A stretch of 48,997 bases of DNA, taken from assembly GCA_946414315.1 (NCBI GenBank), contig CAMKNZ010000016.1:1-48997 (forward strand), given 5' to 3'. The translations under genes and the position numbers were made by a program. Source of the stretch: an uncultured Clostridia bacterium. GTDB lineage: Bacteria; Bacillota; Clostridia; Christensenellales; Aristaeellaceae. This document shows, in pieces, positions 11,575-37,964 of the stretch. A model generated the notes under the pieces. That model worked only from the letters and a program-made list of their open reading frames with translations, searched no databases and was not told the origin of the DNA. Every line of letters begins with the position of its first letter. Positions within the stretch are counted from its first letter, which is position 1.

Positions 11575-14460
11575 ATGTCAAGAAAATGGCGGAACACACT
11601 CATCGGCGTCCTCGTGGCTGCCCTTGTGGTCGTCGGAATCTGGCTGCTCAGCCGGGCTCCCAGTGATTTCAAGGATAAGTACGAGGGCGTAAATCTGTCT
11701 TCGGATGTCACGGGCATAGGACGGAGCAACACTTATGACTCCTATGTGGCGCAGTACGCGGATATGCCGGCTGTTACGGAAACGATTGAAGTGGATCTTG
11801 CTTCCTTTGAGGGGAAGGGCGGTTCGATCTGCGCCGACGGCGTGATGACCGAAGATGAATCCGATCTAACCTGGAAAGTGGAAGTGCCCAAGGCCGGACT
11901 GTATAATATTCGGCTGGAATACCTGACCACGGAAAGCCGCGGGGTGGATATTGAGCGTGAAATCGCCATCAACGGGGAAGTGCCCTTTTTCGGCGCGAGC
12001 ACGCTGTCTTTCCCGCGCCTGTGGACGGACGCCGGTGAGATCCGCAAGGACAACCAGGGCAACGATATCCGCCCCACTCAGGTAGAACGCTTTGAAAAGC
12101 AGAGCGCCTTCTGCATGGACGACATGGGTTATCAGACCGAGCCATATGCCTTCTATTTTATGGAAGGTGAGAACGATCTGACGATCCGTGCCGTGAACGA
12201 ACCTGTGATTCTCTGTAAAGTATCGCTGACGCCGATTACGAAGTATCCGAGCTATACGGAATATGCAGCCACGCACCCGGAAACCTCCATGAGTGAGGAA
12301 GCGAAGAACTACAGCGTGACGATCCAGGGCGAATCCGCCAGACTGCGCAGCGAGCCGAGCCTTTATGCCCGGTACGACCGTGCATCCTCCATGACGGAGC
12401 CTTATTCCGTTACCAACACCATCCTGAACTATATCGGCGGCGACCCCTGGACCCATCCGGGTGAATGGATCCAGTGGGACTTTGACGTGCCGGAAGACGG
12501 ATATTACAACATCTCCATCAAGGCGCGACAGATGTACCAGCGCGGCGCCCTGTCCGCCCGGACGATCTATATCGACGGAGAGGTTCCCTTTGAAGATCTC
12601 GAGGCGGTGGAGTTCGGATACAATACCAGCTGGGAGATGCGGACGCTTTCCGACAAGGAAGGCAATGCTTTCCGTTTCTACCTGAAAGCAGGCAGCCACT
12701 CTATCCGGATGGAAGTGACGCTGGGCGAGATGGGTCCGGTGCTCAAAGAGGTGGAGGACAGCATCTTCCGCCTGAACCAGATCTACCGGAAGCTGCTGGT
12801 GCTGACCGGCGTTAACCCGGACCGGTTCCGCGACTACAAGCTGGCCCAGACCTATCCGGAAGTCATCGAGGCCATGGATCTGGAAAGCAAGCGGTTGTAT
12901 AAGATCGTGGACGAGATTGTGGCCACTACGGGCGAAAAGAGCGACCGGGCGGCAGCTGCCCAGACACTGGCCGTACAGCTGGAGCAGTTTGTGGAATACA
13001 ATGAGCGCATTACCGAATCTTTCGTCAATTTCAAAAACAATATCACCTCCCTGGGTACGGCCATGCAGAACATGTCCGAGAGCAAGCTGGATGTGGACCT
13101 CATCATGGTCACGGGCGAAAGTGTCAAAGTGCCCGACGTACATGAGAATATCTTCCAGAGCATCGGGCATGAAATTCGCAGTTGTGCCAGCTCCTTCTTT
13201 GTGGACTACAACTCCCTGGGCGACAAGTATGAAAGCACAGACGAAGTGCTGGACGTCTGGATCGTCACCGGCCGTGACCAGAGCACGGTGCTGAAGACGA
13301 TGGTGGACGATACCTTCACTGCCAGGACAGGCATCAAGGTCAATGTCAAACTGGTGCTGCAGGACGCCGTGCTGCCGGCAGTGGTGGCGGGGAACGGCCC
13401 GGACGTGGTCATGAGCATCAGCGGCTGGTTCGCAGTGAACTACGCGATGCGCAACGCGGTCGAGGACCTGACCCAGTTCGCGGACTTTGCCGAAGTGACA
13501 GCTCCCTTCCAGCAGAGCATCCTGGATCCGCTGACTTATAATGACAGCAAACACAAAGGCATCTACGGCCTGCCGGAAACCCAGGACTTCCCGGTGCTGT
13601 TTTACCGTTCCGACATTATGGAGGAAATGGGGCTCAAGATCCCAGACACCTGGGCCGAGCTGATCGCAGAGCTTCCGACCATCCAGGGCAACAGCCTGAC
13701 GGTCGGCGTACCCTTCCCGGATGTCGCCATCGCGGATACGCCGGTGTTCAACTCGATGGTGTATCAGAACGGCGGTGAGATTTACGACGAAGAAGCTAAG
13801 CGCACGCTGATCGACAGTGAGGCCGGCGTGGCCGCTTTCAAGCAGTATACGAGTTTGTACAACGACTATGGCCTAGATGTGGTATACGACTTCCTGAGCC
13901 GCTTCCGCTCGGGCGAAATGCCGCTGGGTGTCGCGAACTACTCAACCTACAACACACTGATGGTTTCTGCACCGGAGATTAAGGGACTGTGGGACTTCAC
14001 CTTGTTCCCCGGCACGGAGCAGGAAGACGGAAGCATTGACCGGACCACCCATACCGCGGGCCTGTGCTGCATGATGGTCAAGACGGACGACGAGACCACC
14101 AAGAAGAACGCATGGGAATTCATGAAATGGTGGGTCGGTGCTGAAGCGCAGGTGCGCTTCGGCCGGGAGATGGAGGCAATCCTCGGCTCCTCCGCCCGGT
14201 ACCAGACCGCCAACCAGGACGCTCTGAAGCAGTTGGCCTGGTCCAACAAGCAGCTGAAGGTGCTGTTAGAGCAGATGGCGCACACCCACGGTTTCCCGGA
14301 AATCGCCGGCGGCTACTCCACCACGCGCCACATCACCAACGCGATCCGTAAGGTCATCAATACCAAGGAAGACCAGCGGGAGACGCTGCTGACTTACGCG
14401 CGGACGATCAATGAAGAGATCAGGATCAAACGGCGGGAATTCAACCTGCCGCTTGACTGA
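11575..14460 (+). CDS. Membrane-anchored solute-binding protein fused to two beta-sandwich modules
   Basis: This 961-residue protein has one N-terminal membrane helix (about 8-27) with no clear cleavage site or lipobox. Two related beta-sandwich modules resembling carbohydrate-binding or galactose-binding-like folds follow (about 65-220 and 245-390). Both contain a W-x-V/F-x-VP-x-x-G-x-YN-I pattern. A helical segment (about 395-545) leads to a type I extracellular solute-binding domain (about 555-961) of the CUT1 sugar class, with GNGPDVVMSISGW and YGLPETQDFPVLFYRSDI. Ordinary binding proteins are 400-550 residues, so half of this one is extra. It probably captures an oligosaccharide outside the membrane for the permeases downstream. 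ATG 11575 has GGGAG eight bases upstream. Confidence 0.85.
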   Translation: MSRKWRNTLIGVLVAALVVVGIWLLSRAPSDFKDKYEGVNLSSDVTGIGRSNTYDSYVAQYADMPAVTETIEVDLASFEGKGGSICADGVMTEDESDLTWKVEVPKAGLYNIRLEYLTTESRGVDIEREIAINGEVPFFGASTLSFPRLWTDAGEIRKDNQGNDIRPTQVERFEKQSAFCMDDMGYQTEPYAFYFMEGENDLTIRAVNEPVILCKVSLTPITKYPSYTEYAATHPETSMSEEAKNYSVTIQGESARLRSEPSLYARYDRASSMTEPYSVTNTILNYIGGDPWTHPGEWIQWDFDVPEDGYYNISIKARQMYQRGALSARTIYIDGEVPFEDLEAVEFGYNTSWEMRTLSDKEGNAFRFYLKAGSHSIRMEVTLGEMGPVLKEVEDSIFRLNQIYRKLLVLTGVNPDRFRDYKLAQTYPEVIEAMDLESKRLYKIVDEIVATTGEKSDRAAAAQTLAVQLEQFVEYNERITESFVNFKNNITSLGTAMQNMSESKLDVDLIMVTGESVKVPDVHENIFQSIGHEIRSCASSFFVDYNSLGDKYESTDEVLDVWIVTGRDQSTVLKTMVDDTFTARTGIKVNVKLVLQDAVLPAVVAGNGPDVVMSISGWFAVNYAMRNAVEDLTQFADFAEVTAPFQQSILDPLTYNDSKHKGIYGLPETQDFPVLFYRSDIMEEMGLKIPDTWAELIAELPTIQGNSLTVGVPFPDVAIADTPVFNSMVYQNGGEIYDEEAKRTLIDSEAGVAAFKQYTSLYNDYGLDVVYDFLSRFRSGEMPLGVANYSTYNTLMVSAPEIKGLWDFTLFPGTEQEDGSIDRTTHTAGLCCMMVKTDDETTKKNAWEFMKWWVGAEAQVRFGREMEAILGSSARYQTANQDALKQLAWSNKQLKVLLEQMAHTHGFPEIAGGYSTTRHITNAIRKVINTKEDQRETLLTYARTINEEIRIKRREFNLPLD

Positions 14461-14483
14461 GAGAGAAAGGAGGAAGAGCAAGC

Positions 14484-15428
14484 ATGCAGTCACAGTCCTT
14501 CGCTAACAGATACCTGACCATGCGGCGGGAGAAGATAGCTCACGGCTGGACACTGGCCAAGCGGAACAGGGGATGCTACCTGTTCCTGGCGCCCTATGCG
14601 ATTCTGTTTTTCATGTTCTTTATTCTGCCGATCGGCACTTCCATCTGCCTCAGTTTTACCTATTACAACATGCTGGAGCCGCCGCGGTTTATCGGCTTCC
14701 AGAACTACATCAACCTGGTTCTCCAGGATGAGGTCTTCCTGACGGCTATCAAGAACACTTTTGTGGCGGCGGTCATCGTCGGACCGGTGGGATACATCCT
14801 GTCATTCCTGTTTGCCTGGTTCATTAACGAGCTGCCGAAATGGCTGCGGGCGGTGGCGGTCATCATTTTCTACGCTCCCTCAATCGGCGGCGCGGCCTTC
14901 CAGGTGTTCGCGATCATCTTCCGCGGGGATAACTACGGCTGGTTCAACTCGATCCTGATGGAGCTGGGTATCATCTCGGAGCCGTATCTATGGCTGACGG
15001 ATCCCCGGTACATGATGACGATTGTCATTATCGTCAGCCTGTGGATGAGCATGGGTACCGGCTTCCTGAGCTTCGTGGCCGGCTTCCAGGGCATCGACCG
15101 GAGCATGTACGAAGCAGGTTATGTGGACGGCGTTCGCAACCGCTGGCAGGAACTGTACCACATTACCCTGCCGAGTATGAAGCCGATGCTGCTGTTCGGC
15201 GCGGTCATGAGCATCACTTCCTCTTTCAACATCAGCGACGTGCCGCGGGCTCTGTGCGGCTATCCTTCCACGGACTACGCGGTCCGCACGGTGGTTACCC
15301 ATCTTTTCGACTACGGCTTCAGCCGGTTCGAGATGGGCTACGCCAGCGCCATCGCAACAATCCTGTTCCTGATCATGATTCTGAGCAAAAAAGCAATCGC
15401 CGCATTGCTGGGAAGGGTGGGTACCTGA
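14484..15428 (+). CDS. Sugar ABC transporter permease, first pair, LplB/UgpA-like
   Basis: The 314-residue protein has six membrane helices and the EAA loop that contacts the ATPase (YEAGYVDGVRNRWQELYHITLPS, starting at about 209). It belongs to the CUT1 MalF/UgpA side of carbohydrate importers. AGGAGG lies ten bases before the ATG. It starts 23 bases after the binding-protein gene and is separated by one base from its partner permease, so the two should form a heterodimeric channel. The operon supplies no ATPase. A shared MsmK/UgpC-type protein encoded elsewhere is the usual solution in Gram-positive bacteria. Confidence 0.92.
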   Translation: MQSQSFANRYLTMRREKIAHGWTLAKRNRGCYLFLAPYAILFFMFFILPIGTSICLSFTYYNMLEPPRFIGFQNYINLVLQDEVFLTAIKNTFVAAVIVGPVGYILSFLFAWFINELPKWLRAVAVIIFYAPSIGGAAFQVFAIIFRGDNYGWFNSILMELGIISEPYLWLTDPRYMMTIVIIVSLWMSMGTGFLSFVAGFQGIDRSMYEAGYVDGVRNRWQELYHITLPSMKPMLLFGAVMSITSSFNISDVPRALCGYPSTDYAVRTVVTHLFDYGFSRFEMGYASAIATILFLIMILSKKAIAALLGRVGT

Positions 15429-15429
15429 G

Positions 15430-16656
15430 ATGAGTGAAATCAATACGGTCAGATCCAAAGGTACCCTTCAGCTGATCAACGGCAAAAAATTCAAGGGCGA
15501 GCTGGTCGCGAATGAAACCGGCGCCGCGTTCTATGCCAAGGGGCAGAAGGAGCCTATGGCCGAGTGGCACTACGCCCGGATGAACCGGATGGACAATATC
15601 CGCCGGGGCGGCACCTCGAGCCAGATTACAGTCATCCTCAAGGACGACGCCCGGTATGTGTTCGACCTGAACCAAGGCCTGAAGCTCTACAGCCATATGG
15701 ACAAAAACTGGGCGGATAAGCCGGTGCGGGCCAAGACCCGGGGCGATATCCTGCATGAGCAGGCGGAACGCCTGGGCCAAAAGATCGAGGTGCCAAAGAA
15801 GCACCTGATTACCCGGCGCCATCCGAACCGCTCCATCGGCGGCGATATCGTGATCTACCTGCTGCTGCTCCTGGTGGCTGTGGCGATGGTATTCCCGCTG
15901 GTTTACCTGGTCGGTTCCTCCCTGAAACCGCTGGATGAACTGTTCCGTTTCCCGCCGCCCGTATGGCCCAGCCATCCGACGATGGACAACTTCGCCGACT
16001 TGTTTGTAACGATGGGCCAGAGCTGGGTGCCATTCAGCCGTTACCTGGTGAACACCCTGTTCATCACCGTAGTTGGTACCTTCGGTCATCTGGTGGTGGC
16101 AGGCATGGCGGCCTTCGTACTAGCCAAGTATGAATTCCCCGGTGGCCGGATGTTCTTTGGCGTGGTTACCACCTGCCTGATGTTTTCCGGCTACGTAACA
16201 GGCATTCCGAACTATCTGATTATGAGCAAACTGGGCATTGTCGACACCTACTGGGCGCTGATTCTGCCTGCGTTTGCCGCGCCTATCGGCCTGTTCCTGA
16301 TGAAGCAGTTCATGGAAGGCCTGCCCACTGCCCTCATCGAGGCAGCCACCATCGACGGTGCCAGCCGTTTCCGGGTGTTCTGGAGCATCGTGATGCCCAA
16401 CGTCAAACCCGCGTGGCTCACCATGATCATCTTCAGCGTCCAGGCCTTGTGGAACAACAACGCCGCTACGATCATCTACTCTGAGGCGAAGAAGACGCTG
16501 GTCTACGCCCTGGGCCAGATCCTGGCCGGCGGCGTTGCCCGGACGGGTCAGTCTGCCGCGGCCAACGTGATTATCGTCGCGGTCCCGATCCTGATCTTCG
16601 TGTTCAGCCAGAGCCGGATTCTGGAGACCATGGCCTCCTCCGGCATCAAGGACTAA
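15430..16656 (+). CDS. Sugar ABC transporter permease with N-terminal PH/GRAM-like domain
   Basis: This 408-residue protein is about 130 residues longer than usual CUT1 permeases of the MalG/AraQ type. The C-terminal 270 residues are the ordinary six-helix permease with its EAA loop (IEAATIDGASRFRVFWSIV, from about 303). The extra N-terminus (about 8-85) is predicted beta-rich: KGTLQLINGKKFKGELVA and a later SSQITVILKDDARYVFDL segment. This is the strand pattern of PH/GRAM-like domains. It is followed by a basic linker (about 95-137) before the first helix. The domain would lie in the cytoplasm. It may contact the ATPase, a lipid or another subunit. The gene begins one base after its partner permease stops. 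Confidence 0.85.
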   Translation: MSEINTVRSKGTLQLINGKKFKGELVANETGAAFYAKGQKEPMAEWHYARMNRMDNIRRGGTSSQITVILKDDARYVFDLNQGLKLYSHMDKNWADKPVRAKTRGDILHEQAERLGQKIEVPKKHLITRRHPNRSIGGDIVIYLLLLLVAVAMVFPLVYLVGSSLKPLDELFRFPPPVWPSHPTMDNFADLFVTMGQSWVPFSRYLVNTLFITVVGTFGHLVVAGMAAFVLAKYEFPGGRMFFGVVTTCLMFSGYVTGIPNYLIMSKLGIVDTYWALILPAFAAPIGLFLMKQFMEGLPTALIEAATIDGASRFRVFWSIVMPNVKPAWLTMIIFSVQALWNNNAATIIYSEAKKTLVYALGQILAGGVARTGQSAAANVIIVAVPILIFVFSQSRILETMASSGIKD

Positions 16657-16672
16657 GAGGGGAGAGATGACA

Positions 16673-18205
16673 ATGAAGAAAACAATCTCCTTTCTGCTGG
16701 CTTTCCTGCTGCTGATCCCTGCCGCCGGCGCTTTTGCCGACGACAGCGCGAGCCTCAAGGAGGACGGCTTCAGCACATCCTACACATACAACTATGACTA
16801 CTGGGGAGACGTGCAGATGTCTCCGGATCCGTACCGCGTCGAAACGATCATCGACTCGATGACGCTGGGACTGGAAAACCTGGATGGAAAGCTGATTACC
16901 AAGCCTCAGAGCATCTTTATCCGCAACAATGACGTCTATCTGGCCGACTCCGGCAACAACCGCATTCTGCAGATCCGCTACAAGGACGGGGAGGCAACGC
17001 TAACCCGCGTAATCTCAGAAATCACCGGAACGGAGCCCGCCGGCTTCAACAATCCGACGGATATCTTCGCAGATGAAAAAAACAATATCTATATTGCTGA
17101 CCAGAACAACAACCGTGTAGTCATGGTCGACAAAGACCTGAATTTCATCCGTGAGTTTGTCAAACCGGATGACGCAACATTCAACCAGGCGTCCGCCTTC
17201 CTGCCCAGCAAGATCGCAGTGGACGTCGCAGGGCGCGTCTATGTGCTGGCGGTGAACGTGAACAAAGGTTTCATGAAATATGAAAACGACGCGACGTTCA
17301 CAGGATATATCGGCGCCAACGCCGTCAAGGTCAACATGGCGGACTACATCTGGAAGCGGTACTTCATGTCCAAGGAACAGCGGGCGGCGAGCGAGAGCTT
17401 TGTTCCGACGGAATACGAGAACATGTACATGGACGAGAAGGGCTTCATATACGCGACAACCACGGTGTTCAAGGAATATGAGCTCCTTTCCGACTCCGCC
17501 AAGCCGATCCGCCGCCTGAACGGCATCGGGAACGATATCCTGATCAAAAACGACCGGTATCCGCCCATCGGTGACCTGGACTGGAAATCGGAGAGCCTGC
17601 AGTACGGCCCGTCGAAACTTGCGGACATCACGGCGATGAAGAACGAGATCTACGTTGCGGTGGACCGGATGCGCGGCCGGCTGTTCGGCTACGACAGCCA
17701 GGGTGTCATGCTATGGGCCTTCGGTACCAAGGGCAGCCAAGACGGAACCTTCAACCGGGCGATCGCCCTGGATCACATGGGCTACGACCTGTTCGTGGTC
17801 GATGAGATGAAAAACAGCATTACCGTGTTTACCCCGACGGAATACGGACAGATGATCTATGACGCGACGGACGCCTACCTGTCGGGCGACTATACGGCCA
17901 GCGATGAACTGTGGCAGCAGGTCATGAAGCTTAACGCCAATTATCCCCTGGCGTTCCGGGGCATCGGGCGGTCGCTGCTGCGGCAGGAAAAATACGAGGA
18001 AGCGATGGATTATTTCGAACGGGCCCACGCCCGGGAGGAATACGGCCGGGCCTTCAAGCAATACCGGAAGTACTGGGTGGAAAAGAACATCTGGTGGGTC
18101 TTCCTGGTCATCGGGCTGCTTCTGATTGTTCCGCTGATTCTCGGACGCATCAAGAGAACGAAATGGGAGGTGATCATGCATGAGCACAGCAAAGTCCGCA
18201 AGTAA
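16673..18205 (+). CDS. Secreted NHL-type beta-propeller with TPR and C-terminal membrane anchor
   Basis: The 510-residue protein has a signal peptide (MKKTISFLLAFLLLIPAAGAFA). Repeated NHL-like blades follow, such as NDVYLADSGNNRILQI, NNIYIADQNNNRVVMV and YDLFVVDEMKNSITVF. A TPR-like helical pair lies at about 398-465, one membrane helix at about 473-492, and a basic tail would be in the cytoplasm. Propeller and TPR modules usually bind glycans or proteins. Here they would sit on the outer face of the membrane beside the transporter, so a scaffold or sensor role is likely. The start is ATG 16673, eight bases after GGGGAG. The ATG at 16667 is too close to that site. The 3' end overlaps the Yip1 gene by 26 bases. 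Confidence 0.75.
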   Translation: MKKTISFLLAFLLLIPAAGAFADDSASLKEDGFSTSYTYNYDYWGDVQMSPDPYRVETIIDSMTLGLENLDGKLITKPQSIFIRNNDVYLADSGNNRILQIRYKDGEATLTRVISEITGTEPAGFNNPTDIFADEKNNIYIADQNNNRVVMVDKDLNFIREFVKPDDATFNQASAFLPSKIAVDVAGRVYVLAVNVNKGFMKYENDATFTGYIGANAVKVNMADYIWKRYFMSKEQRAASESFVPTEYENMYMDEKGFIYATTTVFKEYELLSDSAKPIRRLNGIGNDILIKNDRYPPIGDLDWKSESLQYGPSKLADITAMKNEIYVAVDRMRGRLFGYDSQGVMLWAFGTKGSQDGTFNRAIALDHMGYDLFVVDEMKNSITVFTPTEYGQMIYDATDAYLSGDYTASDELWQQVMKLNANYPLAFRGIGRSLLRQEKYEEAMDYFERAHAREEYGRAFKQYRKYWVEKNIWWVFLVIGLLLIVPLILGRIKRTKWEVIMHEHSKVRK

Positions 18206-18875
18206 GCCCGCTGTCCGGGCAGATGACGGAAAAGCGAAAGCGTGGCTGAGCCGGTACAGGCAGTCTCTGCGCTATGCCCTGTATGTCATCACGCATCCCT
18301 TCGACGGATTCTGGGACCTGATTCACGAAAAAAAGGGCTCCATCGCCGCAGCGAACACCTTCCTGATCCTGTTTCTGCTGATCCGGGTGCTGAAGCTGAT
18401 CGCGACGAACTTTCAGTTTATCTCCGCGCCGATTCAGCATATCAACGTGTTCGAGGAGATGGGCTCCCTGCTGCTGCCCTTCATCGTGCTGTGCGTCGCA
18501 AACTGGGCAATGACCACGCTGTTTGAGGGTAAAGGCCGGTTTAAAGATATCTACATGGGCATGTGCTACGCGCTGGTGCCCTATATCCTGATTCAGCTAC
18601 CGATGATCCTGGTCAGCAACATGCTGACCTATGAAGAGGGAAGCTTCTACAGCGTACTGCTGGCTTTCTCGGTGATCTGGTGCTTCTTTCTTGTGTTTGT
18701 CGGCTTGATGGAAATCCACGATTACGGTCCCGGAAAGACATTCATCTTCCTGATCGTCACGGTGGTCGGTGCCTGCGTGATCCTGTTCCTGATGCTGGTG
18801 TTCTTCAGCCTGCTCTCGGACGCGGTGGCCTTCTTTGTCAGTTTCTACCGTGAGATCGTATTCAGACTGAATTAA
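18180..18875 (+). CDS. Yip1-family integral membrane protein
   Basis: The 231-residue protein has a basic cytoplasmic N-terminus and about five membrane helices. The first helix is preceded by the ITHPFDGFWDLIHEK motif, typical of bacterial Yip1-domain (YIP1/DUF1282-type) proteins. Their function in bacteria is not established, though they recur beside carbohydrate transporters. TGGGAGG lies nine bases before the ATG, inside the end of the propeller gene. The overlap implies tightly linked translation and probably physical partnership with the propeller protein, whose tail ends just inside the membrane. Confidence 0.75.
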   Translation: MSTAKSASKPAVRADDGKAKAWLSRYRQSLRYALYVITHPFDGFWDLIHEKKGSIAAANTFLILFLLIRVLKLIATNFQFISAPIQHINVFEEMGSLLLPFIVLCVANWAMTTLFEGKGRFKDIYMGMCYALVPYILIQLPMILVSNMLTYEEGSFYSVLLAFSVIWCFFLVFVGLMEIHDYGPGKTFIFLIVTVVGACVILFLMLVFFSLLSDAVAFFVSFYREIVFRLN

Positions 18876-18886
18876 GGAGGGGGAAG

Positions 18887-21469
18887 ATGATGGAAAGGCA
18901 AAAGAAAAAAGTCATCCGCAACCTGATCCTCTGGCTGGTCGCGCTGATTGCGCTGGCCTGCCTGGTGCTGTTTGTGTTCGTGCCCATTTACTCCGAAAAG
19001 GAAGTATCCTCCGGCAGGGAACCGCATCTGGTCTTCTATGAGGGAGACGGGGAGAACGTGGTGATTGAAAACGATCACCTGCTGCTGGAAATGGACGCGG
19101 CCACAACCCAGTTCACCGTGACCAGCAAGGATAACGGGAAAGTCTGGTACTCCAATCCGGAAGGCCGGGACAAGGATCCGATCGCCCACGGCGTGAACAG
19201 CGAACTGCTCTCTTCCACGCTGAACCTGACCTATACCGTATCCGGCAACGAAACGGAACTGAACAACTACCGGTATTCCATGATGAACCGGAACTTCAAT
19301 ATCTATAAGGAAGACGATCAGACAATTCGGATCGAGTATGCCATCGGTCAGATTGAACGGACCTATACCATCCCGCTTGCCATTACGGTAGACCGCTACA
19401 AGGAACTGACAGGGCAGATGTCCGGCGGGGACAAGAAGAAGGTCAAGAGCTTCTACACCCTGTTCGACGCCAAACAGCTGGGCAAGGCGAACAACCTTGA
19501 TGAACTGAAGGCACTGTATCCCAACATTGAGGAAGGCAATCTCTACATCCTGAAATCCGGGGTTGAGGCCTCCAAAAAGGAACAGTTGGAAGGGTATTTT
19601 TCCAAGGTCGGTTACGATCAGGAACAGTATGAGATCGATATGCAGAACGTGGCGCAGACGGAAGAAAACCACGGCCCGTTCTTCAATGCCGTGATGATTC
19701 TCCGCCTGGAAGGGAACCAGCTGGTGGCCGAGGTGCCCTACAATGAGATCACCTATGACGCGGCTTATCCCCTGACGTATATCTCCGTGCTGCCGATGTT
19801 CGGCGCGGCCGGCACCGATCAGGAAGGGTTTATCTTCATTCCGGAAGGCAGCGGCGGCGTGATCAAGTACAACAACGGCAAGCTGTCCCAAAACGCCTAT
19901 TACGCCAACCTGTATGGCTGGGACTACGGCATGGAGCGGACAGAGGCTGTCAGCGAGACGGAGGACACCTTCGCGGTCTTCGGCATGGGGCAGAAGGACG
20001 GCTCCTTCATCTGCGTGCTGGACGGCGCCAGCTCCTACGGCGCCATCTACGCGGACATCTCCGGACGGTTCAACAGCTTCAACACCGTTTACTGCAAATA
20101 CAACCTGATTCATTACGGCCAGTTCAAACTGTCCGGCCGGACCAATGAGCAGGTGCTGATGTACGAGAACACGATTCCGGACGACACGATCATTCAGCGC
20201 TATTGCTTTGTGGATACGGACAGCTACGTCGGCATGGCGGAAGCCTATGGCGATTATCTGCGGAGCCTGCCTGAGTTCAAGCAGGAAGCGGCCGATCCCG
20301 AGGTTCCGGTGCATGTGGAACTGATCGGCGCGATCAACAAGACGATCCCGAAGCTGGGCGTTCCGGTGGATTCCGTGGTGCCTGTCACAACCTTCAGCGA
20401 AGCGCAGGAGATTATGGACGAACTGCTGGACAGCGGCGTGAAGCACCTGAACATCCGGATGACCGGCTGGAGCAACGGCGGAGTTCTCCAGAAGGTGCTG
20501 ACCGGCGTCAACACGGTCGGACCGCTGGGCGGGGACAAGGGCCTCAAACAGCTGATCGAGGACGCGAAGGCGAAAAATGTATCCGTTTATCTGGACGGAA
20601 TCAGCTGCTTTGCCTACGACAGCGGCCTGCTGGAAGGCTTTGTGCCGACGCTTCACGCTGCCCGCTTTACGACACGTGAGCTGGTCAAGCTGTATCCGTA
20701 CTATATCGTTACCTATCAGCAGCAGGACTGGTCCGATCCGTACTATCTTGTCAAGCCGAGAATCGCGAATGACTATGCGAACAATCTGGTGAAGGCGGTC
20801 AGCGGTAAGGGAGCCGCCGGCGTCGCTTTCCGGGATATCGGCAATCTGCTCAGCGCGGACTATTACAAAAACGAGACCGTGACCCGCGAGCAGGTCAAGG
20901 CCATGAACGTTCAGGTGCTTCAGAACGCCGTGGAACAGGGACTGAAGATCAGTGTCAAGAAGGGCAACGATTACGCCCTGCCTTACGCGGATCTGATCAC
21001 GGACATGAACCTGACCGGACGAAAATACACGATCATCGACCAGGCAGTGCCCTTCTACCAGATCGCGTTGCACGGCCTGAAGAACTACACCGGCGAAGCC
21101 ATCAACCTCTCCAGCGATTTCAAGAATTCTCTTCTGGAGAGCGCGGAATTCGGCGCCGGGCTGAGCTTCACCTTCATGAAAGCGGATACCAGCATCCTGC
21201 AGGATTCCGCATACAGCTGCTACACAGCCGGATCCTATGATCGCTGGAAGGACGAAGTGATGCCGATGATCCTGAGATACCAGCAGGAGATGTCCGGGCT
21301 GAACAGCCAGCGGATCTCCGGCCATGAATTCCTGACAGGCGAGGTTCATGTGACCACCTATGAGGACGGAACAAAGGTATACGTCAATTACGGCGGTACC
21401 GAATACAAAAAAGGATCCGTCCGAATTCCCGCCCGTGACTATCTGGTAGAAAGGGGGAACGCGCAGTGA
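18887..21469 (+). CDS. DUF5696-type membrane-anchored protein, candidate glycosidase
   Basis: This 860-residue protein has an N-terminal membrane helix (about 10-32) and a long extracellular part. The first half is beta-rich (HLLLEMDAATTQFTVTSKDNGKVWYSNP), like the N-terminal beta-sandwich of several glycoside hydrolase families. The second half alternates helix and strand, with VKHLNIRMTGWSNGG, NVSVYLDGISCFAYDS and GVAFRDIGNLLSADYY. That pattern suggests a TIM barrel with acidic residues at strand ends. I match it from memory to DUF5696, which has no assigned function. A membrane-bound glycosidase that trims glycans before uptake is a reasonable guess. AGGAGG precedes two adjacent ATGs, at 18887 and 18890. 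Its stop overlaps the next GTG start. Confidence 0.65.
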   Translation: MMERQKKKVIRNLILWLVALIALACLVLFVFVPIYSEKEVSSGREPHLVFYEGDGENVVIENDHLLLEMDAATTQFTVTSKDNGKVWYSNPEGRDKDPIAHGVNSELLSSTLNLTYTVSGNETELNNYRYSMMNRNFNIYKEDDQTIRIEYAIGQIERTYTIPLAITVDRYKELTGQMSGGDKKKVKSFYTLFDAKQLGKANNLDELKALYPNIEEGNLYILKSGVEASKKEQLEGYFSKVGYDQEQYEIDMQNVAQTEENHGPFFNAVMILRLEGNQLVAEVPYNEITYDAAYPLTYISVLPMFGAAGTDQEGFIFIPEGSGGVIKYNNGKLSQNAYYANLYGWDYGMERTEAVSETEDTFAVFGMGQKDGSFICVLDGASSYGAIYADISGRFNSFNTVYCKYNLIHYGQFKLSGRTNEQVLMYENTIPDDTIIQRYCFVDTDSYVGMAEAYGDYLRSLPEFKQEAADPEVPVHVELIGAINKTIPKLGVPVDSVVPVTTFSEAQEIMDELLDSGVKHLNIRMTGWSNGGVLQKVLTGVNTVGPLGGDKGLKQLIEDAKAKNVSVYLDGISCFAYDSGLLEGFVPTLHAARFTTRELVKLYPYYIVTYQQQDWSDPYYLVKPRIANDYANNLVKAVSGKGAAGVAFRDIGNLLSADYYKNETVTREQVKAMNVQVLQNAVEQGLKISVKKGNDYALPYADLITDMNLTGRKYTIIDQAVPFYQIALHGLKNYTGEAINLSSDFKNSLLESAEFGAGLSFTFMKADTSILQDSAYSCYTAGSYDRWKDEVMPMILRYQQEMSGLNSQRISGHEFLTGEVHVTTYEDGTKVYVNYGGTEYKKGSVRIPARDYLVERGNAQ

Positions 21470-22476
21470 GCAAAGACAGAAAGCATAACCACTGGTATGA
21501 GGGCATTACTGAAGCGGTTCAGATGTATATCCCGGGTAACAGGATGTACAGGACTATTCAGGCACGGCGCGCCCGGACCGGTACGCTTTTCATCCTCCCG
21601 CTGATTATCGGCTTCCTGGCCTTCATGGTCCGCCCGCTCTTCCTGTCCCTTCAGATGAGTATGAGCAAGGTGGCTGTGGTGGAAGGAACGATGAGCCCCT
21701 TCAATATCACAATGAACCTGTTCGGGCAAAACATTGTGGTTCCCTTCGGCAATTACAACTACGCATTTGTTTCCGATCCGGATTTCTCCAAGATGCTGGT
21801 GAGCGAAATCGGGCGCATGGCGATCAACACGATCGCGACGCTGGTTATGAGCTTCGTTATCGCGGTCATCCTGAATCAGAACTTCAAGGGCAGAACCCTC
21901 TGCCGGGTGATCTTCTTCCTGCCGGTCATCCTTTCTTCCGGCGTGCTGCCCGGCATAGAGAGCCAGAATGCCTACTTCAACTTGATGACCAGTATCTCGG
22001 ATGCGGTGGGCGAGTCCTCGGGAGTCAACCTGTCGCAGGCACTACAGAACCTGCTGAGCGTCTCGGGCGTGGCCAAAGACGTCTTTGACGTGATCTTCCA
22101 GATGATCGACGCGATCTATGATATCATCATGGCCAGCGGCATCCAGATCATCGTGTTCCTGACGGGCCTTCAGTCCATCTCCCCCTCGCTGTATGAGGCG
22201 GCGGACGTGGAAGGCTGCTCCGCCTGGGAATCCTTCTGGAAGATCACCTTCCCGATGGTCAGCCCGCTGCTGCTGGTGAACTGCATTTACACGATCATCG
22301 ACTTCTTCATGAAAAACGACAACCAGGTCATGGAACACATCAACAGCGTGATGTACGGTACCCAGATGGACTTCGGCGCGGCCTCAGCTGAGAGCTGGAT
22401 TTACTTCGGCGTCGCCCTGCTGTTCATCGGGATCAGCACGTTCATCATTACAAGGGCGGTGAAGTCCTATGAGTAA
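21466..22476 (+). CDS. Sugar ABC transporter permease, second pair, LplB/UgpA-like
   Basis: The 336-residue protein is a CUT1 permease with six helices and an EAA loop (YEAADVEGCSAWESFWKITFP, from about 243). A longer insertion of about 60 residues lies between helices in the middle (IESQNAYFNLMTSISDAVGESSG...), which would be extracellular and might contact the binding protein. Translation starts at GTG 21466, overlapping the stop of the DUF5696 gene as GTGA. It overlaps the next permease gene by eight bases, so the two are made as a pair. Confidence 0.92.
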   Translation: MSKDRKHNHWYEGITEAVQMYIPGNRMYRTIQARRARTGTLFILPLIIGFLAFMVRPLFLSLQMSMSKVAVVEGTMSPFNITMNLFGQNIVVPFGNYNYAFVSDPDFSKMLVSEIGRMAINTIATLVMSFVIAVILNQNFKGRTLCRVIFFLPVILSSGVLPGIESQNAYFNLMTSISDAVGESSGVNLSQALQNLLSVSGVAKDVFDVIFQMIDAIYDIIMASGIQIIVFLTGLQSISPSLYEAADVEGCSAWESFWKITFPMVSPLLLVNCIYTIIDFFMKNDNQVMEHINSVMYGTQMDFGAASAESWIYFGVALLFIGISTFIITRAVKSYE

Positions 22477-23479
22477 AGGCAATACGGTTTTCATCGGAAA
22501 GAACAAAAGCTTCCGGGAACGGAACCGCCGAAGCAACGGCTATCTGCTGAAACGCACAACCGGACGGATCGCTATCTCCGTGATCCGCGGCTTGCTGATG
22601 TTCGGCCTGTGCTTCATGATCATCCAGCCCCTGATCACCCGCTTTTCTGTGAGCCTGATGGCGGCGGAGGACATCTATGACTCGACGATCCGGCTGCTGC
22701 CGCGGCATGTGACGCTGGATAACTACCGGATCGTAGCAGAACTGACTTCCATGCCGACCTCCATGATCAACACCGCGTGGATTTCGTTCGTGATGTCCAT
22801 CTGCCAGGTGGTTTCCACGACGCTCGTGGCCTACGGCTTCGCCCGATATGAATTCCCGCTGAAGAAATTCTGGTTTGCCTGTGTGGTCATGCTGATCATT
22901 ATCCCCCCGCAGACGATCCAGACAGCGCTGTTCATGTCCTTTACGCACTTTGATATCTTCGGGATTTTCAAGGCGACAACCGGCAGTGATATCAACCTGA
23001 GGTCCTCGCTGATCCCTTATACGGTAATGTGCCTGACCTGCATGGGCCTGAAGGACGGGCTGTACATCTACATGCTGCGGCAATATTTCAAGAGCGTCCC
23101 GGTCAGCCTGGAAGAGGCGGCCTATGTGGACGGCTGCGGCACGATGCATACCTTTGTAAAGATCATGCTGCCGGACGCAGTGCCGACCATCGCCAGCTGT
23201 TTCCTGTTCAGTTTTGTCTGGCAATGGACGGACCTGTTCTACACCCGGAATTTCATCTCCGGCTACAAGATCTATTCCCGGGAGCTGAGCAATATTACTT
23301 CCATTATGAGCAAGTATTTTGCCAGAAACTCGACGGAAAATGTCACAGTGCCGCTGGGAAGGCAGATGCAGCTGATCGGTATCGGCGTGTTTATCTGCTG
23401 CGTTCCGCTGATCATTCTCTACGCATTTACGCAGAAGACTTTCGTGCAGAGCCTGACAATGACTGGTTCGAAGGAATAA
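22469..23479 (+). CDS. Sugar ABC transporter permease, second pair, AraQ/UgpE-like
   Basis: The 336-residue protein has six helices and the EAA loop EEAAYVDGCGTMHTFVKIMLPD (from about 214). It is the MalG/AraQ-side partner of the permease encoded just upstream, with an eight-base gene overlap. Unlike the corresponding permease of the first pair, it lacks the PH/GRAM-like extension and has only a short basic N-terminus. It is the last gene before a new promoter at 23514. Confidence 0.92.
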   Translation: MSKGNTVFIGKNKSFRERNRRSNGYLLKRTTGRIAISVIRGLLMFGLCFMIIQPLITRFSVSLMAAEDIYDSTIRLLPRHVTLDNYRIVAELTSMPTSMINTAWISFVMSICQVVSTTLVAYGFARYEFPLKKFWFACVVMLIIIPPQTIQTALFMSFTHFDIFGIFKATTGSDINLRSSLIPYTVMCLTCMGLKDGLYIYMLRQYFKSVPVSLEEAAYVDGCGTMHTFVKIMLPDAVPTIASCFLFSFVWQWTDLFYTRNFISGYKIYSRELSNITSIMSKYFARNSTENVTVPLGRQMQLIGIGVFICCVPLIILYAFTQKTFVQSLTMTGSKE

Positions 23480-23499
23480 AGCGCACAAAATGCGGGAAA

Positions 23500-23513
23500 T
23501 GTACAGACTTGTA
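23500..23513. promoter_or_regulatory. Inverted repeat GTACA-GACT-TGTAC abutting a promoter
   Basis: This 14-base inverted repeat ends directly at the -35 box of the promoter for the second binding-protein gene, a position suited to an activator or repressor. Related GTAC palindromes lie upstream of the first binding-protein gene. Confidence 0.35.
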
Positions 23514-23542
23514 CTTGATAAAATGTCAAAAGCGGTCTATAA
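23514..23542 (+). promoter_or_regulatory. Promoter of the second solute-binding-protein gene
   Basis: TTGATA (23514-23519), 17-base spacer, TATAAT (23537-23542). The leader of about 90 bases contains a 9-bp hairpin (ACAGATTTC with GAAATCTGT, 23586-23608) shortly before AGGAGG. A separate strong promoter is expected because binding proteins are needed in excess over permeases. Confidence 0.8.
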
Positions 23543-23637
23543 TAATCCTGAACAGCGGGTGTAACCGCATTAACAACGTACCTATACAGATTTCGGTAGG
23601 AAATCTGTAAGGAAATAAAAAAGGAGGTTTTCTCATT

Positions 23638-25125
23638 ATGAAGAAAATCATGGCTCTGGTTCTGGCGGCTCTGATGCTGCTGGGCTGCTGCAGCTTCGCT
23701 GTGGCGGAAGACGTCCCGGAAGGCTATCCGGCAAAGATCGAAGGCCTGGATCTGGGCGGACAGACTGTCTACATTTACGACTGGTGGTCCAATGACGACG
23801 AAGCGCATTCCAGCCGTAAGGCCGATCCGGACGAAGAAGAGCAGCTGCTCTACGAGTACCGTGACTGGCTCGAAGCCACCTACAACTGCAAGATCGTGAA
23901 CTGCGCCTGGGACAAGGGCGGTTGGGCAGAAAGCCCCCAGGAACTGGCCAACATGGTGAATGACGGACATGCCGATCAGCTGTGCTGCATCGTGATCGAT
24001 CCGAACTTCGCGGGCGGACCTCTGGCCAACGGCCTGCTGGAGCCCTGGGACATCGATCTGAGCGGATCTCAGTGGCTGACCTCCGTTTCCGACCTGATGA
24101 CCAAAGACGGCAAGGTTTACGGCGTGTTCGCCGGAGACCAGGAACCCCGTGAAGAAATCTTCTTCAACAAGAAGGTTCTGGAAGACGCCGGTATCGACTA
24201 CAACGAGATCTATGACCTGGCCGAAAAGGGCGAATGGACCTGGGCTGCGTTCGAAGGCTACATGGAAAAGGTTCTGCAGGATACCGACAACGACGGTATC
24301 TATGACATCTGGGCTCTGACCGGCAACGGCGACCGCCTCTTCCGTGGCTGCGTGTACGGCAACGGCGGCACCCTGTTCGACATGGTCGACGGCAAACTGG
24401 CCATCACCGCTGACAGCGACAAGACCCTGAAGGGCATCAAACAGCGCCAGGATTGGGATCGGTTCATGCCCCAGAAGGCTGACTTCGCTCCCGACGGTGA
24501 ATGGAACTGGTTCGAAGGCTTCTGGAAGCAGGGCACCACTGCCTTCTTCGTAGGCCAGAACTATGAAGGCTTCGGCGATGAGAGCTGCCTGATGCGGAGC
24601 TGCGACTTCGAGTGGGGCTGCGTCCCGTTCCCGAAGGGACCCGATGCTGACGACTACTACTATGCTGCCGTGAACAACATCGTTGTTGTTCCCGCCAAGT
24701 GCTACGACGCTGACACCGTGAAAGCGATCGAGCAGATCTACGCTCTGTACACCTATCCCACCCCCGGTATTGATCCCGAGACTTCCTGGATCGGCGATAA
24801 GTACACCTTCGCGGATGAGAAGGCTGTTGACATCACCTTCGCGACCCTGCGTGATCCCAAGCGTGCTGTTGGTAACAAGACCTACCTGCTGGGCGATGAG
24901 AACACCGTCCTGGGCAGCACCCTGATGTGGAACCTCGGCAGCGGAACCCCCGCTGAAATCGTCGAAGCTGCCCGTGAAGTGTGGCAGTTCCGCTGCGACG
25001 TCTTCAACGGCGACAAGACCAACGCCGACTTCGAAGAATATCAGGAGCAGAAGCAGAAGGAAGCTGAAGAAGCTGCCGCTGCTGCCGCTGCTGCTGAAGA
25101 AGCTGAAGAAGCTCCCGCTGAATAA
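23638..25125 (+). CDS. Sugar ABC transporter solute-binding lipoprotein
   Basis: The 495-residue protein has a short signal sequence ending in LMLLGCC, a plausible lipobox, so it is probably anchored by lipid. The body is a CUT1 type I solute-binding domain (GGQTVYIYDWWSNDDE, EEIFFNKKVLEDAGID, KGEWTWAAFEGYMEKVLQDTD). The C-terminal 30 residues are an Ala/Glu/Lys-rich tail ending EEAEEAPAE, which is unusual for the family. It has its own promoter and an AGGAGG ten bases before the ATG, and its codons look biased toward a preferred set, as in highly expressed genes. It likely feeds the second permease pair just upstream. Confidence 0.92.
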   Translation: MKKIMALVLAALMLLGCCSFAVAEDVPEGYPAKIEGLDLGGQTVYIYDWWSNDDEAHSSRKADPDEEEQLLYEYRDWLEATYNCKIVNCAWDKGGWAESPQELANMVNDGHADQLCCIVIDPNFAGGPLANGLLEPWDIDLSGSQWLTSVSDLMTKDGKVYGVFAGDQEPREEIFFNKKVLEDAGIDYNEIYDLAEKGEWTWAAFEGYMEKVLQDTDNDGIYDIWALTGNGDRLFRGCVYGNGGTLFDMVDGKLAITADSDKTLKGIKQRQDWDRFMPQKADFAPDGEWNWFEGFWKQGTTAFFVGQNYEGFGDESCLMRSCDFEWGCVPFPKGPDADDYYYAAVNNIVVVPAKCYDADTVKAIEQIYALYTYPTPGIDPETSWIGDKYTFADEKAVDITFATLRDPKRAVGNKTYLLGDENTVLGSTLMWNLGSGTPAEIVEAAREVWQFRCDVFNGDKTNADFEEYQEQKQKEAEEAAAAAAAAEEAEEAPAE

Positions 25126-25263: not shown

Positions 25264-26820
25264 ATGACCAAGAGAATCCTGGCTTTATTGATGATTCTGT
25301 CTCTCCTGTGCGGATGCGTATCTGTGCTGGCAGACGAAGCTGTCACTGTTTACACTTCTGATTTCAGCGCAGATGAAGACGGTTGGTACGGCCGCGGATG
25401 CCAATCCTACCGTACCAATGAAAACACGCTGAAAAGTATCGGGCGCATGTCCGCATGGAACTCTCCAGGACGCGATTTTGACCTGATCGAGGGCGGGAAG
25501 TACGATCTGAGCGTTGAAGTAAAGCAGGACGATCTGGACAGCGCTGACTTTATGATCTCTATCGCACATTCCACAGAGGGCACGGAGACTTACGAAAACC
25601 TGGCTTACGGGACTGCAAAAAAAGGCGAATGGACGACGCTGAGGGGCACCTACTCAGCCGGCGCATTTGAGCGGTATGTGCTGTATGTGGAGACGACCGG
25701 CGCGGATACGCTGGATTTTGAAATCCGGAATTTTACCGTCACTGCACCGGAACCACTGCCTGAACCCAAGCCGACCGAACCCCCGATGGAGATTGAGGTA
25801 GCCGACAGCGTTCCCAGCCTGAAAGAAATCTATGCCGGCAAATTTGACTTCGGTTCCGCCGCTCCGCAGAGTGTATTTTCAAATCCCACCTGGACCAACC
25901 TGATCAAGGAACAGTTCAGCATCCTGACCCCCGAGAACGAGATGAAACCGGATTCGGTTCTTGACGTGGCGAAGAGCAGGAAACTGGTCGAACAGACCGG
26001 GGACGAAACGGCGGTTGCCGTTCACTTTACAGCCGTTCAGCCGCTATTGCGGTTTGCCAAGGAAAACGGTCTGAAGGTTCATGGCCATACACTGCTCTGG
26101 CACAGCCAGACTCCCGGCTCGCTGTTCCATGAAGGATATGACGCGATGAAACCCCTGGTCACGCGGGAAGTCCTGCTGGGCCGGATGGAAAACTATATCA
26201 AGGGCGTTATGGAATACCTGAAGGAGAACTATCCCGGCGTCGTGGTTTCCTGGGACGTGCTGAACGAAGCGGTGGACGACGGCGCAGGCATACTGCGGAA
26301 CAGCAACTGGAAAAAGATCATCGGTAATGATTATCCGAATTATGCTTTTGCCTTTGCCCGGAAGTACGCCGAAGAAGGAACGCTGCTGTATTACAACGAC
26401 TATAACACTGCCTATGGGAACAAGCGGAAGGGCATCCTGAAGCTTCTGAACAGCCTGATCCCTGAGGGAAACATCGACGGATATGGCTTCCAGATGCATC
26501 ACAGCGTCGGCGAACCGAGCAACGGGATGATCAAGGCAGCTGTGGATGAGATCGCCGCAACCGGGCTCCGACTTCGCGTCAGCGAGCTGGATATCGGCGT
26601 GAACAGCAAAACAGAAAAATCGTTTACGAATCAGGCAAAGAAATACGCCGACGTGATGAAGATCATCCTGTCTCACGCCGATCAGTTTGAAGCCGTTCAG
26701 GTTTGGGGGCTGACGGATATGATGAGCTGGCGTGCCAGTAACTCTCCATTATTGTTTGACGGGAGAGGCAATCCGAAACCGGCCTTCTGGGCGGTAGCCG
26801 ATCCGTATTCAGTGAAGTAA
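25264..26820 (+). CDS. Secreted GH10 endo-beta-1,4-xylanase with N-terminal carbohydrate-binding module
   Basis: The 518-residue protein has a signal sequence (about 1-23; LCGC may serve as a weak lipobox). A beta-sandwich module of CBM4/9/22 type (about 27-160, DFSADEDGWYGRG ... LDFEIRNFTV) leads through a Pro/Glu linker to a complete GH10 barrel (from about 185). The catalytic acid/base is Glu335 in WDVLNEAVDD and the nucleophile is Glu441 in RVSELDIG. GH10 enzymes cut xylan internally and tolerate substituted chains. It has its own promoter and lies between two terminators. Products would be xylo-oligosaccharides, fitting the importers upstream. Confidence 0.93.
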   Translation: MTKRILALLMILSLLCGCVSVLADEAVTVYTSDFSADEDGWYGRGCQSYRTNENTLKSIGRMSAWNSPGRDFDLIEGGKYDLSVEVKQDDLDSADFMISIAHSTEGTETYENLAYGTAKKGEWTTLRGTYSAGAFERYVLYVETTGADTLDFEIRNFTVTAPEPLPEPKPTEPPMEIEVADSVPSLKEIYAGKFDFGSAAPQSVFSNPTWTNLIKEQFSILTPENEMKPDSVLDVAKSRKLVEQTGDETAVAVHFTAVQPLLRFAKENGLKVHGHTLLWHSQTPGSLFHEGYDAMKPLVTREVLLGRMENYIKGVMEYLKENYPGVVVSWDVLNEAVDDGAGILRNSNWKKIIGNDYPNYAFAFARKYAEEGTLLYYNDYNTAYGNKRKGILKLLNSLIPEGNIDGYGFQMHHSVGEPSNGMIKAAVDEIAATGLRLRVSELDIGVNSKTEKSFTNQAKKYADVMKIILSHADQFEAVQVWGLTDMMSWRASNSPLLFDGRGNPKPAFWAVADPYSVK

Positions 26821-27143: not shown

Positions 27144-28394
27144 ATGCGGGGCAGAAGTCTTTGTGCACTGATCCTTATGATTGTAATGGCGATCTGCGCG
27201 ATTCCTGGACTGGCGGATATGCCGGTTCAGACGGAGGAGATTACGATCCCGGTGATCGATGATCTGGAAACGTTTGATATTCCAGACAATGATGCGATGG
27301 CGTTGATGCGGGACATGAAGTGCGGATGGAATCTGGGAAATACGTTTGACGCATATAACGGTTATACCGCTTATTACAGCGGGATAGAGATGGAATCGAG
27401 CTGGGTTGGATCAAAAACCAGAAAAAAACTGATCCAGACCATCAAGGATGCAGGATTTGGAATGATTCGAATTCCGGTAAGCTGGCATAACCATGTGGAT
27501 AAGAATGGAATAATCAACCAGGAATGGATGGATCGGGTGAAACAGGTAGCCAGCTGGGCACTGGAATCGGATATGTATGTGATTGTTAATGTACATCATG
27601 ACAATCATAAACGTTTTTTTTATCCTGATGAAGCACATTATGAACAATCCGCGGTTTACCTGACCAATGTATGGACACAGATGGCAGAGGCATTTGGAGA
27701 GTACGATGATCATCTGATCCTAGAATCTTTGAATGAACCCAGGCTTGTAGATACGCCGCTGGAATGGAACTGGTCGGCTAACAACGCCCAGTGCCGAGAA
27801 GCAGCTGAATGCATAAACAAGCTGAACCAGTTATTTGTAGATACGATACGCGCCACAGGAGGCAATAATGCAACACGTTATCTGGCTGTTCCAGCCTATG
27901 ATGCCTCCCCATGGTATGCCTGCAATGAACTGTTTAAACTTCCGGAAGATCCTGCCGATAACAGGATTATCGTGGAAGCTCACGCTTATACACCATACAA
28001 TTTTGCACTGAACCTGAAGAGCACGGACAAGGATTTTGATCTGGTAAAAAGCGGGAACAAGAAAAAGGAAATCGATAGTTTTCTGAACGGCCTTTATCAG
28101 CGATTTGTTTCAAAAGGTATACCTGTCATGATGGATGAATTTGGTGCGCTTGAAAAAGACGGGAACCTGCAGGATCGTGTGAATTTCGCTGCGTACTATG
28201 TTGCAGCAGCTGCTGCTCGTGGAATCCCTTGTGTGTGGTGGGATAATCATTGTTTTACAGGAGTGGACAGCGAACGATTCGGCCTGATCAGAAGAGGTAT
28301 GTCGGAATGGGTCTATCCGGATATCGTCCTGGCGATCCAGAGAAACTGCCTGTATAACCGGGAAGAAAACGCGGAGGAAGCGCCTGCGGCCTGA
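27144..28394 (+). CDS. Secreted GH5 endo-beta-1,4-glucanase (subfamily 4-like)
   Basis: The 416-residue protein has a signal peptide (about 1-24) and a single GH5 barrel, with no carbohydrate-binding module. KCGWNLGNTFDAY near the N-terminus is characteristic of subfamily GH5_4. The acid/base is Glu198 in LNEPR, the nucleophile Glu332 in MDEFGA, and VHHDNH holds conserved His residues. GH5_4 enzymes cut cellulose, mixed-linkage glucan, xyloglucan or xylan. The C-terminus ends AEEAPAA, like the tail of the solute-binding protein at 23638. The gene is visibly richer in A and T than its neighbours, which may mean later acquisition. AGGAG lies eight bases before the ATG. Confidence 0.92.
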   Translation: MRGRSLCALILMIVMAICAIPGLADMPVQTEEITIPVIDDLETFDIPDNDAMALMRDMKCGWNLGNTFDAYNGYTAYYSGIEMESSWVGSKTRKKLIQTIKDAGFGMIRIPVSWHNHVDKNGIINQEWMDRVKQVASWALESDMYVIVNVHHDNHKRFFYPDEAHYEQSAVYLTNVWTQMAEAFGEYDDHLILESLNEPRLVDTPLEWNWSANNAQCREAAECINKLNQLFVDTIRATGGNNATRYLAVPAYDASPWYACNELFKLPEDPADNRIIVEAHAYTPYNFALNLKSTDKDFDLVKSGNKKKEIDSFLNGLYQRFVSKGIPVMMDEFGALEKDGNLQDRVNFAAYYVAAAAARGIPCVWWDNHCFTGVDSERFGLIRRGMSEWVYPDIVLAIQRNCLYNREENAEEAPAA

Positions 28395-34350: not shown

Positions 34351-37920
<3,570 letters not shown>

Positions 37921-37964
37921 AAGGGGCACACTCCCTTCGATAAAATCGAGTCGATTTAGGTGAA

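Follow-up and report, generated by a model that had tools for sequence, protein, structure and literature searches.

Nine adjacent genes of an uncultured Clostridia bacterium appear to encode a single system, conserved in Bacillota, that captures and imports glycans, a reading to which we assign a probability of about 60%. The genes lie on the + strand at positions 11575-25125 of the window, by which we mean the whole stretch of 48,997 nucleotides that was analysed (contig CAMKNZ010000016.1 of assembly GCA_946414315.1). In order, they encode a substrate-binding protein (SBP1), a first CUT1 permease pair, a protein with NHL propeller and TPR repeats (NHL/TPR), a Yip1-family protein, a DUF5696 protein, a second permease pair and a second substrate-binding protein (SBP2). 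The system would combine surface holding of glycans, a scaffold of NHL/TPR and Yip1, two CUT1 pairs and a shared ATPase. Open reading frames (ORFs), Pfam and reading of the sequence confirmed the gene content given in an earlier note on this DNA. Two overlaps (26 bases; GTGA) listed there were found in the sequence, and Pfam bore out its statement that the run has no ATPase.

Conservation and co-inheritance of the nine genes

Conservation was assessed in two sets of DUF5696 loci. The phylum set comprises 55 loci, that is, all places scoring at least 480 bits, minus the window's own, in 398 genomes drawn evenly across Bacillota. At most three DUF5696 candidates were scored per genome, so that further copies are missed, and weaker matches were dropped (two genomes that pass the Pfam cut-off with scores of ~26 bits and seven below it at E 0.001). 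The named set is made up of the 80 top-ranking DUF5696 relatives out of 560 from named genomes and is biased toward near relatives, because the most similar matches were kept. Named carriers of the system include Lachnotalea glycerini DSM 28816 and Clostridium sp. 12(A). Profiles of the components were obtained by iterated hidden Markov model search from the loci, and loci on short contigs were set aside before counting. Permeases were counted as pairs and not by label, since their profiles cross-match.

Strong DUF5696 genes occur in 37 genomes of the phylum sample, from 16 families. NHL/TPR is present at 51 of 51 loci of the phylum set and Yip1 at 50 of 51 (33 fused, 17 separate), and a permease pair lies directly downstream of DUF5696 at 52 of 52. 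The corresponding counts for the named set are 68/69, 69/69 and 65/65, with locus L091 as the only miss for NHL/TPR, and SBP1 with a permease pair was found upstream in 60/60. Because a pair directly follows DUF5696 in all 52 eligible phylum loci, the accessory genes NHL/TPR, Yip1 and DUF5696 belong foremost to pair 2. As a check on its reading of one complex, the earlier note had named a search for co-occurrence of the Yip1, propeller and DUF5696 genes with CUT1 permeases, and absence of the accessory genes from most homologous loci was to speak against that reading; the counts favour it, and the accessory genes are present at most loci.

Of the 44 phylum loci whose upstream sequence exceeds 7.5 kb, 35 have SBP1 in cis, and in 29 of these it is located upstream. 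At E 1e-100, SBP1 was detected in 40 of 396 genomes. These include all 37 genomes with strong DUF5696 (the window's own among them; in G163 the SBP1 gene is interrupted by a contig end) and 3 of the other 359. Two of these three carry SBP1 on contigs of ~4 kb that end within permA1 (L246, L247), and the third is G140. SBP1 was also found in 14/14 genomes chosen to include loci lacking it in cis. Twenty further SBP1 regions were inspected, of which 12 have the accessory genes, 6 do not and 2 reach contig ends. Our data support the view that the nine genes are one old, co-inherited and conserved unit and not chance neighbours.

The entire cassette, together with a GH10 match, also occurs in an unverified record filed as a human-faeces bacteriophage (L250; MT835587.1), which is more likely a bacterial contig.

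Gene overlaps and fusion of NHL/TPR with Yip1

The NHL/TPR gene (16667..18205) encodes a protein with a hydrophobic stretch at both termini. By hydropathy, the N-terminal one is signal-like, and the C-terminal one is a predicted span with a basic tail behind it. The next gene (18180..18875), which overlaps it by 26 bases, encodes a multispan membrane protein with a Pfam Yip1 domain (E 1.8e-14) and about five hydrophobic regions once overlapping ones are merged. The Yip1 start codon and the ribosome-site-like GGAGGTGA just 5′ of it both lie inside the NHL/TPR coding sequence. Where the two genes are separate, the median gap is -26 in the named set (76 pairs) as well as in the phylum set (18 pairs), and exactly -26 is the commonest value (45 of 94 pairs). 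The gap between Yip1 and DUF5696 has a median of 15 in the named set and 12 in the phylum set, and that between DUF5696 and permA2, which overlap in a GTGA in the window, has a median of -4 in both sets. The NHL/TPR-Yip1 and DUF5696-permA2 overlaps are more than chance.

In many relatives the two proteins are one. In the phylum set, 34 ORFs encode an NHL/TPR protein whose C-terminal part is the Yip1 domain, and in the three of these that were checked, NHL, TPR and Yip1 Pfam matches were all found in a single protein. An annotated plasmid of Paenibacillus cellulosilyticus likewise encodes a 719-residue ‘YIP1 family protein’ that also matches the NHL/TPR profile. In a 2019 review, prokaryotic Yip1 members were still without a reported function (PMC6682643). 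The Yip1 protein of the cluster shares the Pfam domain with other bacterial Yip1-family proteins, but differs from them in having a fixed gene and fusion partner.

Two substrate-binding proteins, one with repeats resembling carbohydrate-binding modules

SBP1 (11575..14460) is predicted to be a membrane-tethered substrate-binding protein in which two beta-sandwich repeats resembling CBM35 and Golvesin_C precede an SBP_bac_1 domain. Hydropathy shows a hydrophobic stretch at residues 4-31 with a basic start, followed by a large C-terminal part, and no lipobox was seen by eye in the window protein. Of 36 SBP1 ORFs from the phylum sample, 32 have a hydrophobic stretch at the N-terminus and 4 a lipobox-like motif. 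At E 0.01, Pfam CBM_35 matched 24 and Golvesin_C 28 of 35 SBP1 proteins, while the matches of the window protein itself fall below the curated cut-offs. The two repeats align to each other with an hhalign probability of 99.1. The best match of the SBP1 profile in the PDB is Lin1841 (E 4.2e-23), the nearest solved binding protein. This match is confined to the C-terminal substrate-binding part of SBP1, and the solved chain of Lin1841, with 397 residues, is too short for tandem modules resembling carbohydrate-binding modules (CBMs) such as those of SBP1. One genome (G142) holds 13 SBP1 matches, some of them partial, versus three DUF5696 loci scored there, which is a strong expansion.

The last gene of the run (23638..25125) encodes SBP2, the second putatively secreted binding protein. 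It has no Pfam match at E 0.001, and it matches an arabino-oligosaccharide-binding protein (PDB 6rjy) at E 7.8e-5. The extracellular substrate-binding protein that characterizes a CUT1 importer is therefore recognized in SBP1 through Pfam and in SBP2 solely through this PDB match.

DUF5696 is related to GH129 and GH101 by sequence profiles

The DUF5696 gene (18887..21469) encodes a protein whose hydropathy profile shows one hydrophobic stretch (residues 7-40) that starts with basic residues and precedes a large C-terminal part, as expected for a single N-terminal membrane anchor. Such a stretch is found in 49/55 DUF5696 ORFs of the phylum sample, and a lipobox-like motif in 5/55. A profile built from 36 diverse members matched PDB chains of GH129 enzymes with E-values of 2e-13 (5opq, 8rzg) and 1e-10 (5wzn). 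In 5opq the N-terminal region and the barrel are each matched by a significant stretch, the two being collinear, and the C-terminus is matched by a weak third one (3 bits); 5wzn is matched in one stretch. By these profiles, DUF5696 is a remote relative of the GH129/GH101 glycosidases, two of which are NagBb (PDB 5wzn) and a 3,6-anhydro-D-galactosidase (PDB 5opq). With an E-value limit of 1, the 36 members matched 22 Pfam families but not GH129 (PF11308), and therefore the link is remote. One of the 36 members has a GH97 match (E 0.0084).

An orphan protein of 623 residues from a genome of the same order (L225:577-2448) provides a useful bridge. It matches Pfam DUF5696 (3.8e-20), GH101 (4.4e-9) and GH129 (3e-7) as well as DUF6259, and was aligned to the DUF5696 profile with an hhalign probability of 97.5. 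Searches of 61, 149 and 8 genomes for GH129 relatives that could improve the profile gave a match in one genome only, and the GH129 comparison accordingly draws on the PDB chains and on this orphan.

Catalytic positions were compared using what we take to be the nucleophile, the acid/base and the Asp of the LDGW motif in GH129. In a MAFFT alignment that includes the orphan, the GH129 nucleophile aligns with Asp650 of the window protein, a position that is Asp in 18 of the 36 diverse members. The residue preceding the conserved GW is Asp in none of the 36 and Glu in one, and no conserved Glu was observed in the acid/base region across these members. Two other acidic residues are widely conserved, Asp718 (30/36) and Glu754 (34/36), and could serve some other role. 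The position assignments are tentative, because the hhalign and MAFFT positions of the nucleophile differ by three residues. In summary of the membership in GH129, a relationship by sequence profile was found, conserved catalytic residues were not found in an alignment that is uncertain near the sites, and Pfam GH129 gave no match. Since DUF5696 is GH129-related yet carries no conserved catalytic residues, it is probably a membrane-anchored glycan-binding pseudoenzyme, and a binding role would be the simpler reading. Its unconserved catalytic positions, membrane anchor and tie to importer genes set it apart from the GH129 and GH101 enzymes. In the earlier note the DUF5696 protein had been listed without a fold; its presence stands, and a kinship can now be added.

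Two distinct permease pairs and an ATPase encoded elsewhere

Four Pfam BPD_transp_1 matches form two pairs, giving two such subunits per transporter: permA1 (14484..15428) with permB1 (15430..16656), and permA2 (21466..22476) with permB2 (22469..23479). A tree was computed from 20 loci selected for carrying both pairs, to which four flanking permeases were added as outside sequences; some long branches were flagged. A single branch separates each of A1, B1, A2 and B2 from all the others, with supports of 99/99, 98/93, 95/86 and 100/98, and thus the pairs are distinct lineages and not recent duplicates. PermB1 carries an N-terminal soluble extension of ~130 residues (window 15430-15828) without a Pfam match, which among the loci examined is confined to near relatives of the named set; those of the strong permB1 matches that are 400-419 residues long, at 22 loci, all belong to that set. 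EAA/EAG...DG-like stretches were seen by eye in all four permeases; we take this loop motif to be the one that contacts the ATPase.

A dedicated ATPase within the nine-gene run was rejected, as Pfam detects none there. The genome itself has one MalK-type OB match above the cut-off (C1:203591) and a second one below it. The ORF at C1:203591 passes the NCBIfam UgpC model NF008653 with 473 bits (cut-off 432), and this UgpC/MsmX-type ATPase presumably pairs with the permeases described here. An ATPase-free importer run with a UgpC/MsmX-type gene elsewhere in the genome is ordinary, and a shared ATPase is usual among such importers according to the relevant portions of published work (PMC8579813; PMC7658222). 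In one named relative, a UgpC ATPase gene lies directly upstream of SBP1. Four LLM flavin-dependent oxidoreductase genes surround the plasmid copy of P. cellulosilyticus (L249:4552-26175), and upstream of it lie genes for a UgpC ATPase and an aldo/keto reductase; these neighbours suggest a different substrate there.

Neighbouring enzymes and the likely substrate

Three enzyme genes follow the cassette on the same strand. They encode a GH10 xylanase with CBM4_9 and a signal-like N-terminus (25264..26820), a GH5 protein with a signal-like N-terminus (27144..28394) and a GH94 phosphorylase without a hydrophobic N-terminus (28507..30894). In the genus of the window, DUF5696 was detected in 31 of 37 genomes searched. 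Neighbouring GH10 genes were counted in 23 genus genomes, of which 21 have DUF5696, at 30 loci. GH10 lies within 8 kb of 11 of these 30 loci (11/21 genomes), compared with 0.62 expected from the number of GH10 genes and the approximate genome size, contig breaks being ignored. Because of this excess, a xylan-type hemicellulose is the likeliest local substrate, and hemicellulose, xylan foremost, is our best guess for this locus.

Beyond the genus, the neighbours vary. Among the 80 loci of the named set, GH10 was found at 18, GH5 at 16 and one or both at 31, and in the phylum set GH10 was found at 5/55 loci. Flanks in the phylum sample were surveyed after seven near-duplicate loci had been excluded by judgement, and covered 76 of the 79 candidate ORFs with 430 residues or more. 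The first 25 of 89 families include GH3, GH43, GH42, GH95, GH10, GH26, GH31, fucosidase and GH28, none at more than 5 of 76. In the named-set flanks, where 75 of the 104 candidate ORFs with 480 residues or more were covered, GH10 ranks highest with 5/75, and pheT and Tex also appear among the first 25 of 71 families. Two genomes of family f117 were checked for genes 3′ of the cassette; one has GH43 with CBM6 and the other GH26 with CBM27. GH43 lies upstream of the Butyrivibrio copy (plasmid pNP243 of Butyrivibrio fibrisolvens D1), which also adjoins genes for a histidine kinase and a response regulator. GH94 was matched at none of the 135 other loci. A fixed substrate enzyme was considered and rejected, since the flanking families differ outside the window genus and GH94 does not recur. 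The platform overall probably serves several glycans.

Proposed mechanism and alternative explanations

In the mechanism that we propose, secreted hydrolases, here probably the GH10 xylanase, would cut hemicellulose outside the cell. Tethered SBP1, with its two CBM-like modules, and anchored DUF5696 would keep the glycan at the cell surface and leave it uncut. NHL/TPR and Yip1, one protein in many species, may act as a membrane scaffold that ties SBP1 and DUF5696 to permease pair 2. SBP1 and SBP2 would then pass oligosaccharides to the two CUT1 pairs, both powered by the shared UgpC/MsmX-type ATPase. The topology of the proteins is predicted, as is their assembly into one complex.

Several observations weigh against this reading. 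One phylum locus (L192) has no recognisable Yip1, no SBP1 is found in cis at 9/44 phylum loci, and SBP1-permA1-permB1 stands alone at L230, L234, L238, L240, L241 and L244. With 9/44 and 6/20 loci showing the SBP1 half apart, the two halves usually, not always, travel together. They could be two cooperating but physically separate importers, one formed by SBP1 and pair 1 and the other by SBP2, pair 2 and the accessory trio; the two would share an operon because they import different products of the same polysaccharide. Both this separation and the constant position of the accessory genes next to pair 2 (52/52) agree with such an arrangement, as does the EAA-like motif in all four permeases. 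We nevertheless consider it less likely, as separated halves still share a genome (SBP1 in 14/14 chosen genomes), loci with both halves in cis mostly have the accessory genes between the pairs, and no swapping is seen among the permease lineages. Of the suggestion in the earlier note that there is one complex and not two importers, the existence of a single conserved functional unit that includes three accessory proteins is thus supported, in a modular form whose SBP1/pair-1 half is sometimes apart.

The non-catalytic role of DUF5696 and the substrate are also affected by contrary data. The position of Asp650 is Asp in 50/55 close relatives and Asn in the remaining 5, and this leaves room for catalysis in the window clade. 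DUF5696 as an active, membrane-anchored extracellular GH129/GH101 glycosidase that trims side chains before import would fit these residues, its kinship to GH129 and the wide conservation of Asp718 and Glu754. It seems unlikely to us, given that Asp occupies the nucleophile position in just half of the diverse members (18/36), that Asp never precedes the GW and that the acid/base region holds no conserved Glu. As to the substrate, the flanking enzymes vary by lineage and one relative lies amid flavin-dependent oxidoreductases, so that hemicellulose is no general rule. Still less probable is an assembly that serves mainly sensing or envelope maintenance, in which the binding proteins and the propeller report glycans to regulators. 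In its favour are some window-clade loci beside housekeeping genes (pheT, Tex), the lack of any one enzyme that is constantly adjacent, and the two-component genes beside the Butyrivibrio copy. Two complete permease pairs with binding proteins, the GH10 enrichment, the presence of GH43 or GH26 near the cassette in both f117 genomes and the several copies per genome in some families speak for import instead. The capture-and-import system therefore remains our preferred explanation.

Relation to known importers

The cluster belongs to the CUT1 ATP-binding cassette (ABC) importers, as a variant for which we found no description in the open-licence literature. CUT1 importers of Bacillota that rely on a common MsmX/MsmK ATPase are on record; Athe_2052-2054 and Athe_0595-0598 of Anaerocellum bescii are examples (PMC12710961, PMC12838199, PMC8579813). 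As described there, these systems likewise have two permease subunits, an extracellular binding protein, no local ATPase and a plant glycan context, and they comprise one permease pair and one or two binding proteins (PMC12710961, PMC12838199, PMC8579813). In contrast, the cluster has two distinct pairs, NHL/TPR, Yip1, DUF5696 and a tethered, CBM-bearing SBP1. In open-licence PubMed Central papers DUF5696 is not named, and no paper was found for Yip1 in the context of ABC, substrate-binding protein, polysaccharide utilization locus or Caldicellulosiruptor. By title and start of abstract, no description of the gene set was seen among the matches listed for open-licence papers, though one may exist elsewhere; a published characterisation of the same complex, which would have argued against the earlier note, was likewise not found in that literature.

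How large plant glycans are held and imported is much less clear for Gram-positive gut and soil bacteria than for Bacteroidota. In the SusCD importers of Bacteroidota, surface capture proteins are coupled to an import gate and linked to secreted hydrolases. The cluster resembles them in joining surface capture to import and in its link to secreted hydrolases, but uses ABC permeases and has no outer membrane and no TonB-dependent porin; neither a TonB-dependent SusC porin nor SusD is among the Pfam matches of its genes. Tentatively, one may go further and imagine a Gram-positive SusCD counterpart, a two-pair supercomplex whose importers are fed with a long polysaccharide chain, gripped at the membrane by an enzymatically inactive protein of GH129 fold together with a propeller-Yip1 scaffold. 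If true, bacterial Yip1 and DUF5696 proteins would for the first time have a role. The set, with its probable pseudoglycosidase and Yip1 scaffold, occurs in 16 families of the phylum sample and would be a widespread answer to Gram-positive glycan import. It is easily overlooked because its parts bear names of unknown function. For bacterial Yip1 the set defines a partner and offers a role that can be tested, and DUF5696 gains a likely fold and a place.

Genomic surroundings

The cassette is placed between housekeeping genes, as pheS/pheT lie just 5′ of SBP1 on one side and rpoC and rpoB (window 34351-41852, - strand) lie past the enzyme genes on the other. At 41835-44151, a metallo-beta-lactamase-fold protein is followed by a DHHW/AlgX-like protein, and the two are possibly a surface acetylation pair.

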